A stretch of 28,498 nucleotides of DNA. Origin: a virus. The notes beneath the pieces were generated by a model. That model did not search any database. It saw only the letters and a program-made list of their open reading frames with translations, and had not been told where the DNA came from. Below are positions 22,453 through 28,284 of this stretch, piece by piece. The stretch is from positions 1 to 28,498 of IMG/VR virus record IMGVR_UViG_3300018080_000483. One strand, given 5' to 3'. Position numbers and translations under genes: made by a program. How positions within the stretch are numbered: the first letter of the stretch is position 1; each line of letters starts with the position of its first letter.

Positions 22453-25400
22453 ATGTCACTAGCCACTGATCCGACACCGGTTCGGCCCCCGCACTTCAAG
22501 GCTGGCCCTCCAGACAACAACGACGACTTCCAGAATGGCTTCGTCAAGGGCGACACGCTCATCGACACCGTCAACAACAAGGCCTACACCTGCGTGGTCG
22601 ATACGAATGGCAACGCGCAGTGGGAAGGCGCTGCGGCGATCTCCGTCCACGACATAGCGGGTGCGTTCCACAACTCCAGCGGGGATGCAGGCGACCTCGT
22701 CTTCGATGACGGGGCCGGAGGGTTGACGTCGGCGCAACTGGCTGCTGAGCGCACGGCATACCTGGTGGGGACTGCTGGTGCTGCGAAGTACACCTCGGTG
22801 CAAGCCGCAATAAATGCTGCCTCGAGCGGGAATACCGTCTGGATAATGGGCGGCGTGTATTTCGAGAATGTGACCCTGAAGGACGGCGTAGATGTTCGTG
22901 CTATCCATTCATACAGGGACAACAAGAATTCGGTTCGCATACTTGGCAATATCAGCCTTCCGTCAGGTGGGACCGACTGCACCGTAACCGGAATATGGGT
23001 ATTCGACCTCGCCAGTGCATCGGCGCTTAATACGTCGGCGGCGACTGCGGCGTCAACGATCATCCTGCAAGACTGCCTCCTAGATTCTATCGACGCGCCA
23101 GCGATCACGATCACGAGTAGCAACGTCGCGGTACAAGCGCGGTCGTGCGTCTGCAATCGGCAGTACACCGCATCGACTGGACCGTGCGTGTCGATCGTAG
23201 GAGGCCTTGTTACCATGGATAACTCGCGCATTAGCGCGGGAGATCCGAATACGATAGGGACCGACATAAGCGGCGGAGGTGGTCTCTTCGTCCAGGGTAC
23301 AGACGATCTGAACGACGTGTTATTCGACAACGTCACCGTCTCCGGTGGTAGCAACAACCGACTCATTCTCAGCAATGTGCGGATGGACAAGAACGCCACA
23401 GACCACGTCACAATCATCGGGTCGATGGCGTCCTCGGACGTTTGGTATCACGACGCAGTAGACAGCAACACGGGCGAACCGATAAGCGTTGGCGGAGCAA
23501 ATGCCTCCCAGTTCAAGGAGACCCCCACAGCGACTGCCGGCGACCTGCGCCAAAATGACGGGGACAGGTGGGGCAATGTTGCCGCCTCGACGATCGTTGC
23601 CGGCAACCCCCCGCAGGCTCACTCGGCAAGCCACGAGAACGGCGGGTCGGACGAAGTCGATGTCGGGGGCTTGTCGGGGCTTCTCGCAGATCCCCAGACG
23701 CCAGCCACCCACGCCTCGAGCCACCAAGACGGCGGTGCAGATGAGGTCTCAACTGCAACGCCGTCGGCGAACCAAATCCCCAAGTCAGATGGAAGCAGTA
23801 CGCTGGACGGCTGGATCTCAGACGCCTCCACAATAGCCAAAGGCAAGGTGGAGCTCGCAACAGATGGCGAAAGCGCTGCCAGCCTAGCTGTCCAGGCAAA
23901 CGACTCTCGCCTCTCTGACGCAAGGACCCCAACACCCCACGCCAGTTCCCACAAGGATGGCGGCAGCGATGAGGTGGCCCAAGAGACCGCTGCGGCCGGC
24001 GCAATTCCGAAGGCCACAGCGGCCACTGGCAAGCTGGACATTTCGTTCATTCCTGACTCAGTCATCGGCGGGATGATCTACCAGGGCGTCTGGGACGCCA
24101 GCACGAACACCCCGACGCTTGCGGACGGCACTGGCACCAACGGACACTATTACAACGTCACACCCGGAGGCACGCAGGATCTGGGCTCCGGCCCGATCAC
24201 ATTCACTGCCGGCGATCGTGTCGTCCATAACGGCACAATCTGGCAGAAGTGGGACACCAAGGACCAGGTGACCTCCGTTCATGGCCGGATCGGAGATGTA
24301 GTCGGGGCCAGTGGCGACTACGACGCATCCCAGGTCGACAACGATAGTGTCGTCGGTGGGGCGTCGGTCAAGGATGCGCTAGATACACTTGATGCAGGAA
24401 AGGCAGACGCCTCACACGCTGCGCAGCATCAGAATGGCGGAGGCGATGAGGTAGCGACTGCTACTCCAGGCGCTAATGCTATCCCGAAGGCCGATATCGG
24501 AGGCAAGCTCGATTCATGGGTGAGCAATGCGACGACATCGATCAAGGGGAAGGTCGAATTGGCCACCGATGGCGAGTCGGCTGCCGGAGTCGTGGTTCAG
24601 GGGAATGATGCCAGGCTGTCTGATTCTCGTGATCCTAACGCTCATGCATCCAGCCACGAGAATGGCGGATCTGATGAGATCAGCGTAGCCGGCCTCTCTG
24701 GTGAACTGGCTGATGATCAGCCTCCAAAGGATCACGCATCCGACCATCAGAACGGCGGTAGTGACGAAATCTCCGTGGCAGGTCTCAGCGGGCTACTGGC
24801 GGATCCGCAGACACCGCTCGCGCACGCCTCATCACACTCGGACGGCGGAGCCGACGAGATCAACGTCAAGAATCTGGCTGCAGACTCGACCGCAGGACAG
24901 TTGCCGATCTCCAAGGCAAACGGCTCGATTCAGATGGTCGACTACTACATCGTCAAGACCACCGATGACCTTGAGGCGATCATCGCAGCGGGCGGGTCAG
25001 ACAAGCTCTACATCCTGGATGACGGAACCCATACGAAGACCGACAAGCTCAGCATTGCGGTGAGCGATATCACGGTCAGAGGCAGCAAGGAAGCCGTCCT
25101 CGACATCACAGTGAATGATGACGCCATCGATATCGGAGCCTCCGGAGTCGTCCTGGAGGGTTTCTCTATCGATGCTGATATTGCCGATGGCAGCGCAGTG
25201 GTCAAGTTCGCGGACGGCACCGATCGATCTGGGAGCGCACTGCGGAATCTGTCGGCCAATATCGAGAATGCATACGGACGCTTCGTCGAGAAGAGCGGGG
25301 CGAACCGGTTGGATGATGTGACAATCGAGGGCTGCCTTGTCACAGGGAATGTGCTGGACGGTATTCTGCTTGAGCCGTCGGTGGTGAGCTCCGGACTCGT

Positions 25401-28284
25401 GATCCGGGACAACACCATTGTCTCGGACTACGACTACGCAGTGAGCGCGATTAGGCTCGCCAACCTCGACAGCCTCATAGTTGAGGGCAACCGTGGGGCC
25501 AATGGGCTTGGCGATGGTATCGTGCTCGCAGGTGTCACCAACGCAGGTGTGTCGGACAACGTGATGTTCGGGTTCGGCGGTAACGTGGTGCGAATCAGCG
25601 CATCCGCACTCCGGGCTAGCGAGAAGATTCACCAGGGCGACAACGTTGGCGACACCAAGGACTGGACACCGGCGGAGATCGTCTCTGAACTGTGGCTGGA
25701 TGCTGCAGACGAGGAGACTGTCACCGCGGTCGAGGGCGAGCTTGGGGTTCTGGATGTCAGCGAGCTCAACCCAGTGACAGGGAAGCCGTGGCAGGTCGGC
25801 GATCAATATCGACTGATGTTCTCCTCGAGCACGCTGCGTGACGCGCAGTCCTCCGACATCGCAGACTACGATTCCCACGTGCAGTCGGCCGCAACGGCAG
25901 TCGGAGGTCTCGGGACAGGCTGGAAGGCGATTGGCTCGACGGGCTCCGTGGATGCCGACGAACACACCGAGACCGAGGTCGGCGTCGATGACGATGTGCC
26001 AGTTCTGATGATGGATGGCAAGTCGGTCATCGCGCACAACTACACGGAGTTCTGGAACGGCAAGCGCAGCACGACGGCCAGCAACATCGCAGACGAGAAT
26101 GGCCTGTTCAACCAGAACTATGTGACTACTGGATCATGGGCAACGTGGGAGCCAAACTGGACAGGCACGAGCGGATCCGGGCAAGCCAACAACCCGTTAG
26201 GCGGCGCGACTGTGAATCTCGGCCTGTGCTCGACCACCGCAAGCAATGCTCAATGGGTAGCGCGTGCCGGCGATACCAACGTCACCGAGACAAAGCGGAT
26301 CTATGGCATCTCCCCAGTGCTCACGGTCCAGGCAGTATCTGGCGACAAGGTCAGCAAGTGGTGGGACAAGTCTGGCAATGATCGCCATGTCGTCCAAGAC
26401 ACCGAGTCCGAGAAACCTGTCACTGGGGCCCTCACGCAGAACAGCCTGAACGTCATCGGGTTCGATCCTACGACCGATGACCAGTTCCTTGAGCACGATA
26501 ACCCGACAGGCTTGCCCACGGGTTCGTTCGATCTCTATATGGTCATGAAGCGTGATGTGACTTCAGTGGCCGCCTACGCCTTCACGATGGACGGCACGGG
26601 AAGCGCACAACTCCGAGGCAACAGATTTGCCGACTACTCGTTCGATGGGTCTAACGATGCCGCTGGCAGCTTCAACACAGGCGGGAACAGCGGCGACACC
26701 GACACCCACATCCTCAACTGGCGGATTGACGGCAGCGATGCCTTCCTGTTCCTCGATGGCGTCCAGATCGACACCGACAACATCACCACGCCCATCACCA
26801 TTGACGACTACATCCGGATCGGCGCTGATGCGTTCGGCAACAATGGCCATGATGGATTCATTGCAGAAGTCCTCTGGGTCACGTATCAGACCGATCTGCA
26901 GCGCCAGCTGATCGAGGGATATCTGGCCTGGAAGTGGGGCATTGCTGACGTCTTGCCTGCCGACCACCAATACAAGTTCGGGCGGCCTGTCATTGCACCA
27001 CGTCCGTGGACGCCAGAGGACTCGCAATCCACGTTGCAGCGCTGGTGGGACTTCTCAGATGAGTCGACCATCACTGACACTGGCGGGCTGGTCGACCAAG
27101 TAGACGATAAGTCCATTGCTGGCGATGACCTGACGGGCAGCGGAGGCAATCGCCCAACGACAGGGACAAGGACTATCGGTGGCCTGAATGCCATCGACTT
27201 TGACGATGCGAGCAGCGAACAGCTCGCCCTCGGGCCGACCCTGGATATCGTAGGGATGGAAGTCTGGTCTGTCTTCGAGTTGGACGACCTGTCTGGCACC
27301 CCGGCTTCGCAGCTGATCATGGGAGCAGGCGGCAACAGCCAGGTTGGTGTCAACCCAAGCACCACAAATCTGCGTCTGTGGCGAGGGATCAACCCGTGGA
27401 ATCCTGGCGACAACAGGAGCACCGAGCACGTTGCAGCAAACGTGCCGATCGTCGCAGCGTGGATTGCCGACAAGGACTTCAAGAAGTATTCGCTCAACGG
27501 CGAGCGCGAGACGACCGTCGATGCCTACAAGGGCCCGGGCTGGCCGTTCCCAGTGGACTACGTCGGCCGCGGCCAATTTGCATACATGGACGGCATCATC
27601 GGCGAGATAGTCGTCATCGATTCTCAGAGCGAGCAGGATAGGGATAGGATGGAGGGCTACCTCCATCACAAGTTCAACCAGACCGGCCTGCTGCCGGATG
27701 ACCACCCATACAAGGCGGCTCAACCGATGGTAGCTGGTGCGGTCGTGCCAAGAAGCCAGTCGCACACCTATGCGCAGCGTGAAGGAGGCCGATTCGGTCT
27801 CAGCCCGACTAATGCACGCTCCCCATTCACGGTAGAGGATATGTTCCGCATCGTCTACGATGCTCAGACCGGAGAGCGCGGAACGCAAATGCGCCTGGTG
27901 AACGATACAGGGGCGATCAGCAAGAAGGGCGATGTCATAGCGGCCTCGGCCTCAGTGGACTCAGCAGTTGATCAAGTAGTCGCCGACACACCGAACGCCA
28001 TTGGGGTCATCGCTGAGAATGACATCCCGGACGGCGAACTAGTCTGGGTCTGGATGCCAGGCTCCCTGTGCCAGGTCTTGCTCGAGGACGGCACAGCCGC
28101 CACAGTTGGATATTGGGTCAAGGTGTCGGACAACGATGATGGCCGGGCCGACGCTACTAATGCAACGCCTCCTGGCGGGACAATCAATGCGCTCGAGGAC
28201 CACCTCAGCGAGATTGGACATGCTGCAGAGAGCCAGTCGTCGGGCACAGATGTGCTCTGTCTGATTCATCTGCACTTCAACTAG
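22453..28284 (+). CDS. Giant tail fibre / tailspike with beta-helix, fibre repeats and two LamG-like domains
   Basis: A 1943-residue protein. In order: N-terminal cap (1-110, NDDFQNGFVKGDTLIDTVNN); right-handed beta-helix (112-350, YTSVQAAINAASSGNTVWI); HASSH repeats (390-810) with two KGKVELATDGESAA fibre units and a QGVWDASTNTPTLADGTG block; a second beta-helix (831-1069); LamG-like domain 1 (1070-1510), interrupted by a foreign domain; LamG-like domain 2 (1518-1759), RWWDFSDESTITDTGG to EGYLHHKFNQTGLLP; and a C-terminal decoration-like domain (1815-1943, LLEDGTAATVGYWVKV). The contents suit host-surface glycan binding or cleavage. AGGAG lies before the ATG. It follows the neck genes directly, an unusual position for a fibre, so a head or neck fibre is possible. 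No catalytic acid set was assigned. Confidence 0.85.
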   Translation: MSLATDPTPVRPPHFKAGPPDNNDDFQNGFVKGDTLIDTVNNKAYTCVVDTNGNAQWEGAAAISVHDIAGAFHNSSGDAGDLVFDDGAGGLTSAQLAAERTAYLVGTAGAAKYTSVQAAINAASSGNTVWIMGGVYFENVTLKDGVDVRAIHSYRDNKNSVRILGNISLPSGGTDCTVTGIWVFDLASASALNTSAATAASTIILQDCLLDSIDAPAITITSSNVAVQARSCVCNRQYTASTGPCVSIVGGLVTMDNSRISAGDPNTIGTDISGGGGLFVQGTDDLNDVLFDNVTVSGGSNNRLILSNVRMDKNATDHVTIIGSMASSDVWYHDAVDSNTGEPISVGGANASQFKETPTATAGDLRQNDGDRWGNVAASTIVAGNPPQAHSASHENGGSDEVDVGGLSGLLADPQTPATHASSHQDGGADEVSTATPSANQIPKSDGSSTLDGWISDASTIAKGKVELATDGESAASLAVQANDSRLSDARTPTPHASSHKDGGSDEVAQETAAAGAIPKATAATGKLDISFIPDSVIGGMIYQGVWDASTNTPTLADGTGTNGHYYNVTPGGTQDLGSGPITFTAGDRVVHNGTIWQKWDTKDQVTSVHGRIGDVVGASGDYDASQVDNDSVVGGASVKDALDTLDAGKADASHAAQHQNGGGDEVATATPGANAIPKADIGGKLDSWVSNATTSIKGKVELATDGESAAGVVVQGNDARLSDSRDPNAHASSHENGGSDEISVAGLSGELADDQPPKDHASDHQNGGSDEISVAGLSGLLADPQTPLAHASSHSDGGADEINVKNLAADSTAGQLPISKANGSIQMVDYYIVKTTDDLEAIIAAGGSDKLYILDDGTHTKTDKLSIAVSDITVRGSKEAVLDITVNDDAIDIGASGVVLEGFSIDADIADGSAVVKFADGTDRSGSALRNLSANIENAYGRFVEKSGANRLDDVTIEGCLVTGNVLDGILLEPSVVSSGLVIRDNTIVSDYDYAVSAIRLANLDSLIVEGNRGANGLGDGIVLAGVTNAGVSDNVMFGFGGNVVRISASALRASEKIHQGDNVGDTKDWTPAEIVSELWLDAADEETVTAVEGELGVLDVSELNPVTGKPWQVGDQYRLMFSSSTLRDAQSSDIADYDSHVQSAATAVGGLGTGWKAIGSTGSVDADEHTETEVGVDDDVPVLMMDGKSVIAHNYTEFWNGKRSTTASNIADENGLFNQNYVTTGSWATWEPNWTGTSGSGQANNPLGGATVNLGLCSTTASNAQWVARAGDTNVTETKRIYGISPVLTVQAVSGDKVSKWWDKSGNDRHVVQDTESEKPVTGALTQNSLNVIGFDPTTDDQFLEHDNPTGLPTGSFDLYMVMKRDVTSVAAYAFTMDGTGSAQLRGNRFADYSFDGSNDAAGSFNTGGNSGDTDTHILNWRIDGSDAFLFLDGVQIDTDNITTPITIDDYIRIGADAFGNNGHDGFIAEVLWVTYQTDLQRQLIEGYLAWKWGIADVLPADHQYKFGRPVIAPRPWTPEDSQSTLQRWWDFSDESTITDTGGLVDQVDDKSIAGDDLTGSGGNRPTTGTRTIGGLNAIDFDDASSEQLALGPTLDIVGMEVWSVFELDDLSGTPASQLIMGAGGNSQVGVNPSTTNLRLWRGINPWNPGDNRSTEHVAANVPIVAAWIADKDFKKYSLNGERETTVDAYKGPGWPFPVDYVGRGQFAYMDGIIGEIVVIDSQSEQDRDRMEGYLHHKFNQTGLLPDDHPYKAAQPMVAGAVVPRSQSHTYAQREGGRFGLSPTNARSPFTVEDMFRIVYDAQTGERGTQMRLVNDTGAISKKGDVIAASASVDSAVDQVVADTPNAIGVIAENDIPDGELVWVWMPGSLCQVLLEDGTAATVGYWVKVSDNDDGRADATNATPPGGTINALEDHLSEIGHAAESQSSGTDVLCLIHLHFN
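23620..24885 (+). repeat. HASSH-GGxDE protein repeats in the fibre gene
   Basis: Seven copies of H-x-x-x-H-x-x-G-G-x-D-E begin at 23620, 23710, 23938, 24415, 24643, 24733 and 24823. Spacing is 30 residues between tandem copies (1-2, 5-6, 6-7) and 76 residues across a fibre unit (2-3, 4-5). Copies 3-4 flank a 159-residue segment. Codons differ widely between copies although residues agree, so the duplication is old or selected at the protein level. Confidence 0.8.

Follow-up and report, generated by a model that had tools for sequence, protein, structure and literature searches.

The virus record IMGVR_UViG_3300018080_000483, a linear sequence of 28,498 bases that was analyzed in full (the window), carries a gene for a fibre- or adhesin-like virion protein (positions 22453–28284, + strand, as for all features below; an open frame of 1943 amino acids). 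The protein contains two copies of a LamG domain, and we confirm that copy 1 is split in one loop by a separate domain of 199 residues (residues 1094–1292). This inserted domain, hereafter the module, is predicted to have an endostatin fold and has homologs in bacterial surface proteins. The same insertion is present in two other phages. The split by a foreign domain of about 200 residues had been proposed in a first-pass annotation made from the sequence alone; profile starts, the predicted fold and the bacterial relatives all bear it out. The endostatin fold and the two further phages go beyond that annotation.

The first LamG domain of the fibre protein is split by a separate domain

The first strand of LamG copy 1, SELWLDAADEETVTA (residues 1078–1092; 25684–25728), was recognized from its sequence, its prediction as a strand and its correspondence to the start of unsplit copies; the opening motif within it is ELWLDAADEETVT (residues 1079–1091; 25687–25725). 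The module follows at 25732–26328, delimited by its fold and by its homology to the corresponding segments of two other phage proteins, L003 and L020, and to 66 distinct bacterial open reading frames (ORFs). The first-pass annotation had placed the insert at 25729–26325, within one residue of these boundaries at each end. A linker of seven residues, QAVSGDK (26329–26349), leads into the rest of LamG copy 1 (residues 1300–1511; 26350–26985), which resumes with VSKWWDKSGN (residues 1300–1309; 26350–26379), ends with KFGR and is identified by a LamG profile and its jelly-roll. LamG copy 2 (residues 1527–1758; 27031–27726), also identified by the profile, is uninterrupted, as had been claimed, and serves as an internal control.

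Pfam LamG-type models gave no match at an expectation value (E) of 1 for either copy, both of which are far from the Pfam seeds. The profile used here was built from 55 unsplit copies. A search of viral contigs with the resumed part of copy 1 and with copy 2 found 415 relatives, from which 79 loci were kept, and the window and related viral contigs together contained 163 LamG copies at E < 1e-5. The match starts at profile position 1–5 in 154 of these. A start at position 14–18 combined with an LWLDA-type strand 207–224 residues upstream was found in only three of the 163: the window protein, L003 and L020, the latter two from contigs of 143 kb and 94 kb. In the window protein, the resumed part of copy 1 matches from model position 16 (E 8.7e-42), whereas copy 2 covers model positions 3–236 (E 1.4e-27). 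The intervening segments of L003 and L020 are homologous to the window insert (phmmer, 1e-45 and 3e-23, respectively). Since the three late starts all come with the same module, against 154 of 163 copies starting at position 1–5, the split is not a chance arrangement.

The loop used for the insertion lies between the strand LWLDAAD..TVT and VSxWxDKSGN and measures 12–30 residues in LamG copies. In the unsplit nearest homolog of the L020 LamG domain (L005, 48% identical), the chain is continuous across the site: GWYDPSDISTITDTAGAVSQIDDKSG. For practical purposes an assembly error is excluded, because the frame is open through the whole insert, the G+C fraction of the insert (0.608) matches that around it (0.575–0.60) and the junction falls at the same position in three independent contigs.

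A structural model of residues 1072–1516 (445 residues; mean predicted local distance difference test score, pLDDT, 76.6; predicted template modeling score, pTM, 0.60) contains a two-sheet jelly-roll. Model residues 7–17 form the first LamG strand, and the next LamG strand is at 230–234. The best match among solved structures is the jelly-roll of the cyanopodophage Pan3 tailspike (PDB: 9vyh; Z 18.0 over 207 residues), aligned from model residue 1 to 426 with a target stretch of 245 residues, so that about 200 model residues are skipped. As this alignment spans the model with the insert left out, the jelly-roll is built from both sides of the insert. The first-pass annotation had suggested such a prediction as a check, and the model indeed has jelly-roll strands before and after the insert rather than a single continuous fold. 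The jelly-roll also matches a sialidase lectin-like domain (Z 17.5 against PDB). The window LamG domain thus resembles the Pan3 tailspike and phrog_10356, but differs from LamG-like tailspikes and fibres in being split at a loop by the module. Foldseek also matched the LamG part to the binding domains of botulinum and tetanus toxins; these matches reflect the common jelly-roll and say nothing about toxicity. A LamG-like protein of Pseudanabaena phage Pam2 (ON014754.1, 57610–58344) is annotated as 'botulinum neurotoxin type A'; this label is probably a fold-based misannotation, because the jelly-roll resembles the binding domain of the toxin.

The module is predicted to have an endostatin fold

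Endostatin is the C-terminal fragment of animal collagens XVIII and XV; it is basic and has two disulfides and a zinc site with a histidine near the N-terminus. Its fold belongs to the C-type-lectin-like superfamily, a superfamily of binders. The insert, modeled alone from an alignment of 18 rows (pLDDT 83, pTM 0.84), matched endostatins in all five top Foldseek hits against PDB, each with probability 1.00 and with E between 4.8e-8 and 3.5e-6; the next hit was at E 1.4. With VIA-align, the model superimposed on 1dy0 with Z 16.8 and root-mean-square deviation (rmsd) 3.2 over 169 of its 199 residues, and on collagen XV endostatin with Z 15.5; the next rows after the endostatins were C-type-lectin-like snake proteins at Z 4.1. 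Over the endostatin structures compared (PDB: 1dy0, 1bnl, 1koe, 1dy1, 1dy2), the likeness covers nearly the whole domain (Z 15.5–16.8, rmsd 3.0–3.2, 157–169 residues).

The predicted fold of the insert is that of endostatin, but the insert is not an endostatin. It is only 11–15% identical to endostatins, is not part of a collagen, has one cysteine (50 of 67 module copies have none), lacks the histidine near the N-terminus and is acidic, with 24 Asp/Glu against 10 Lys/Arg. Sequence searches gave nothing comparable: Pfam and NCBIfam had no match beyond chance level to the insert or its 17 relatives, the Pfam endostatin model matched none of the 18 module members, and a profile search of PDB sequences found no match up to E 10. 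The BFVD viral structure library held no protein matching the insert at E below 1. A PHROG 'endolysin' match of the insert (E 0.025) is at chance level. In the window insert, WATWEPNWTGT includes the tripeptide EPN, which resembles a calcium motif of C-type lectins. A calcium-dependent C-type lectin site, marked by conserved EPN/QPD and WND motifs, was considered and rejected, as EPN is not kept in L003 (SWCAVWTGT) or L020 (IYGPVWTGT).

Pfam DUF1554 (PF07588), which we take to cover the Len outer membrane proteins of Leptospira, gave no match at E 1 in the 18 module members, and no sequence relation to Len was seen. The likeness to the Len proteins lies in their being bacterial surface domains modeled as endostatin-like; they bind laminin, fibronectin and complement regulators (PMC2063517). 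In the part of the literature searched, we found no paper on endostatin-like domains in phages.

The module belongs to a family of bacterial surface domains

To place the module, 84,980 bacterial and archaeal genomes were scanned with an alignment of it. One row of the alignment was a hand-written consensus used only for choosing search patterns; confirmation relied on the real L020 sequence. The scan gave 17 loci from Akkermansiaceae and other Verrucomicrobiota, Planctomycetes, Kiritimatiellia, Alphaproteobacteria, Nitrospirales, one Acidimicrobiaceae and others. Among the groups sampled, the family is commonest in Akkermansiaceae (Verrucomicrobiota). Its distribution is patchy: we counted carriers of the module in 21 of 195 genomes from the family of an Akkermansiaceae metagenome-assembled genome (MAG), in 4 of 338 from its phylum and in 4 of 199 from the phylum of a Planctomycetaceae MAG. 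Up to nine module matches occur in a single genome (G368) among the bacterial loci L084–L147. A match on a Sinorhizobium plasmid (E 0.7) was discarded as a false positive, being by inspection a MerR/cupin-like regulator.

Many bacterial members are short proteins made up of a signal peptide, the module and a PEP-CTERM tail, whereas others are surface proteins of 1000–2300 amino acids in which Ig-like repeats flank one or two modules. PEP-CTERM-like tails are present in 22 of the 66 distinct bacterial ORFs, 35 exceed 450 amino acids, and none has a match to our phage-type LamG profile. The window insert matches the module profile at E 3.6e-56 (its own row being part of the profile) and the bacterial locus L088 at E 1e-29. 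Phage and bacterial copies are homologous over their full length, with 34–52% identity for the best matches, and the phage copies share with an Akkermansiaceae subtype the N-terminal extension LGVLDxxxxxINPxTGxxW, for which LGVLDLxxNGGINPATG is the form typical of that subtype. The difference lies in the setting: in bacteria the module follows a signal peptide or stands between Ig-like domains, whereas in the phages it interrupts LamG. No signal peptide or PEP-CTERM tail surrounds the phage module, which is internal to a virion-type protein and is therefore a homologous domain rather than a PEP-CTERM protein. The first-pass annotation had likened the insert to PEP-CTERM-type surface proteins from Planctomycetes and Verrucomicrobia, and homologs were indeed found in both groups; searching with the insert alone retrieved bacterial surface proteins and not only full-length phage LamG proteins, as had been anticipated.

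The module as a possible second binding face

We consider it probable that a LamG loop of the attachment protein acts as a docking site for a bacterial-type endostatin-fold domain that adds a binding face. The steps that are shown are the continuous frame, the split LamG domain, the separate predicted fold, the bacterial relatives and the same insertion in two other phages. We hypothesize that an ancestral phage took the module from the gene of a bacterial surface protein, and that it was then passed on or re-acquired. The loop would tolerate a domain whose ends lie close together, and the module would project sideways from the jelly-roll, offering a second face for binding, and the two domains might jointly recognize glycans or matrix on the surface of the host cell. 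The module may thus bind the receptor. Recognition of a host surface polysaccharide or matrix appears the likeliest role, and one we favor with some reserve, because proteins with either fold are commonly binders and the jelly-roll is shared with the Pan3 tailspike.

The main rival to a binding role is that the module is a spacer or an element of stability or shielding, with recognition left to LamG, the beta-helix or other parts of the protein. We regard this as the less likely role, although the acidity of the module makes it improbable that the heparin-type basic binding of endostatin carries over, and in bacteria the module is often just one among several domains between Ig-like repeats. 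It fits less well with a fold drawn from a superfamily of binders and with a position in the loop of a lectin-type fold. Moreover, the endostatin-like Len proteins of bacteria bind laminin and fibronectin (PMC2063517).

A bolder version of the binding role, in which phages of Verrucomicrobiota repeatedly capture host surface or matrix domains at the same LamG loop and convert self-adhesion modules into receptor binders, seems doubtful to us. Were it correct, the module would keep the binding partner of the host protein, a host exopolysaccharide or matrix, and use it to stick to the host.

Origin and spread of the split architecture

Scans of 2.9 million viral contigs yielded only two further phage cases, L003 and L020. 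No viral contig was retrieved with exact 8-mers from the insert, and an alignment-based scan was needed. In a midpoint-rooted tree of 67 module copies, all three phage copies fall within the Verrucomicrobiota part. The window copy groups with L003 (support 86/94), and L020 groups with the bacterial locus L102 (support 97/90, 52% identity). The L102 gene is chromosomal and not part of a prophage; by inspection, it is flanked by a YifB/ComM-like gene and a gene for a GntR-type regulator. LamG copy 2 of the window and that of L003 are sisters (100/98), so these two phages share the tandem architecture by joint inheritance. A single phage clade is rejected neither for the module nor for the split LamG (approximately unbiased test, p-AU 0.166 and 0.285, respectively), and we therefore do not claim that the module was captured twice. 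A bacterial origin of the module is likely, and the donor may have been the phage's own host.

Alternatively, the fusion could be an old heirloom handed from phage to phage, with the nearest bacterial copies, such as L102, captured from phages rather than the reverse. The joint inheritance of LamG copy 1, module and LamG copy 2 by at least the window phage and L003 agrees with this, as do the unrejected single clades. We nevertheless find it improbable: module diversity is far greater in bacteria, where the copies in the tree span several phyla and include stand-alone secreted forms, the viral contigs contributed just the two further cases, and L102 sits among ordinary chromosomal genes in an ORF devoid of a phage-type LamG match.

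Several observations weigh against a bacterial-type domain docked in the loop to add a binding face. The codon usage and G+C fraction of the insert are the same as in the neighboring 3' half of the gene, which does not suggest a recent transfer. The root of the module tree is a midpoint, which leaves the direction of transfer to the breadth of the bacterial family. As to the host, the major capsid gene has no relative in 289 Verrucomicrobiota genomes, in a search run without a positive control, and the named phages whose capsid and portal genes are related (about 30% identity) have many unrelated hosts. The model of the full region has a pTM of 0.60 and weak stretches, and a fold alone shows no function, a point that bears on the binding step.

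It is very hard to maintain that the module merely stands in tandem before a LamG domain and that the upstream ELWLDAAD strand resembles LamG by accident. The initial argument for a split used motifs alone, and the arrangement is found in just three proteins; against this, the resumed part lacks LamG positions 1–13 in all three split copies, each with the matching strand upstream, the predicted jelly-roll uses strands from both sides and L005 is continuous at the site. Still less credible is an elaborated native LamG loop, despite the variable loop length at the site, since the insert folds alone in prediction, matches endostatin over most of its length and has stand-alone bacterial counterparts that carry it alone between signal peptide and PEP-CTERM, which refutes that reading.

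The fibre gene and its other parts

The fibre gene lies downstream of genes for terminase (13734), portal, head morphogenesis, protease, major head protein, neck and head proteins. The neck and head genes are directly 5' of it, the record ends shortly 3', and neither a tail tube gene nor a tape-measure gene was seen. The protein matches phrog_10356 (virion structural protein; E 8.7e-31) over LamG copy 1, and neighbors of the L003 homolog match tail fibre families. Its product is probably a phage attachment protein, judging by the cyanophage tailspike as the nearest solved jelly-roll, the position of the gene after head and neck genes and the tail fibre families next to L003.

Just upstream of LamG copy 1, a right-handed beta-helix-like region (residues 843–1052; 24979–25608) is weakly indicated by PF13229 (E 2e-4, below Pfam's own cut-off) and the NosD-like TIGR04247 (E 1.2e-5). 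Residues 521–665 (24013–24447) match phrog_13892 (minor tail protein; E 2.1e-27). This domain is common to the minor tail proteins of many Gordonia phages, with identity of up to 53%, so the fibre is a patchwork whose parts come from phages with distant hosts. Residues 390–802 (23620–24858) contain seven HASSHxxGGSDE-type repeats; relatives of this stretch, at 46–55% identity, are found in Haloferax tailed virus 1 and Halorubrum phage Hardycor1, which are viruses of archaea.

Implications

Phage attachment proteins are well known to exchange modules, mostly by end-to-end swaps. To this the present case adds the predicted endostatin fold, the occurrence of the insertion in two further phages and, for one of these, a chromosomal sister, L102. 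Here one binding domain has received a complete domain of bacterial type and remains intact, which points to a precise, insertion-tolerant loop. The analysis also brings to light an unnamed bacterial endostatin-fold family that has neither a Pfam nor an NCBIfam model, and, with chromosomal relatives in hand, the binding partner of a verrucomicrobial surface module becomes testable. The split fibre protein thus provides an example of how phages can rebuild their attachment proteins with bacterial parts, as a variant of known modular evolution.

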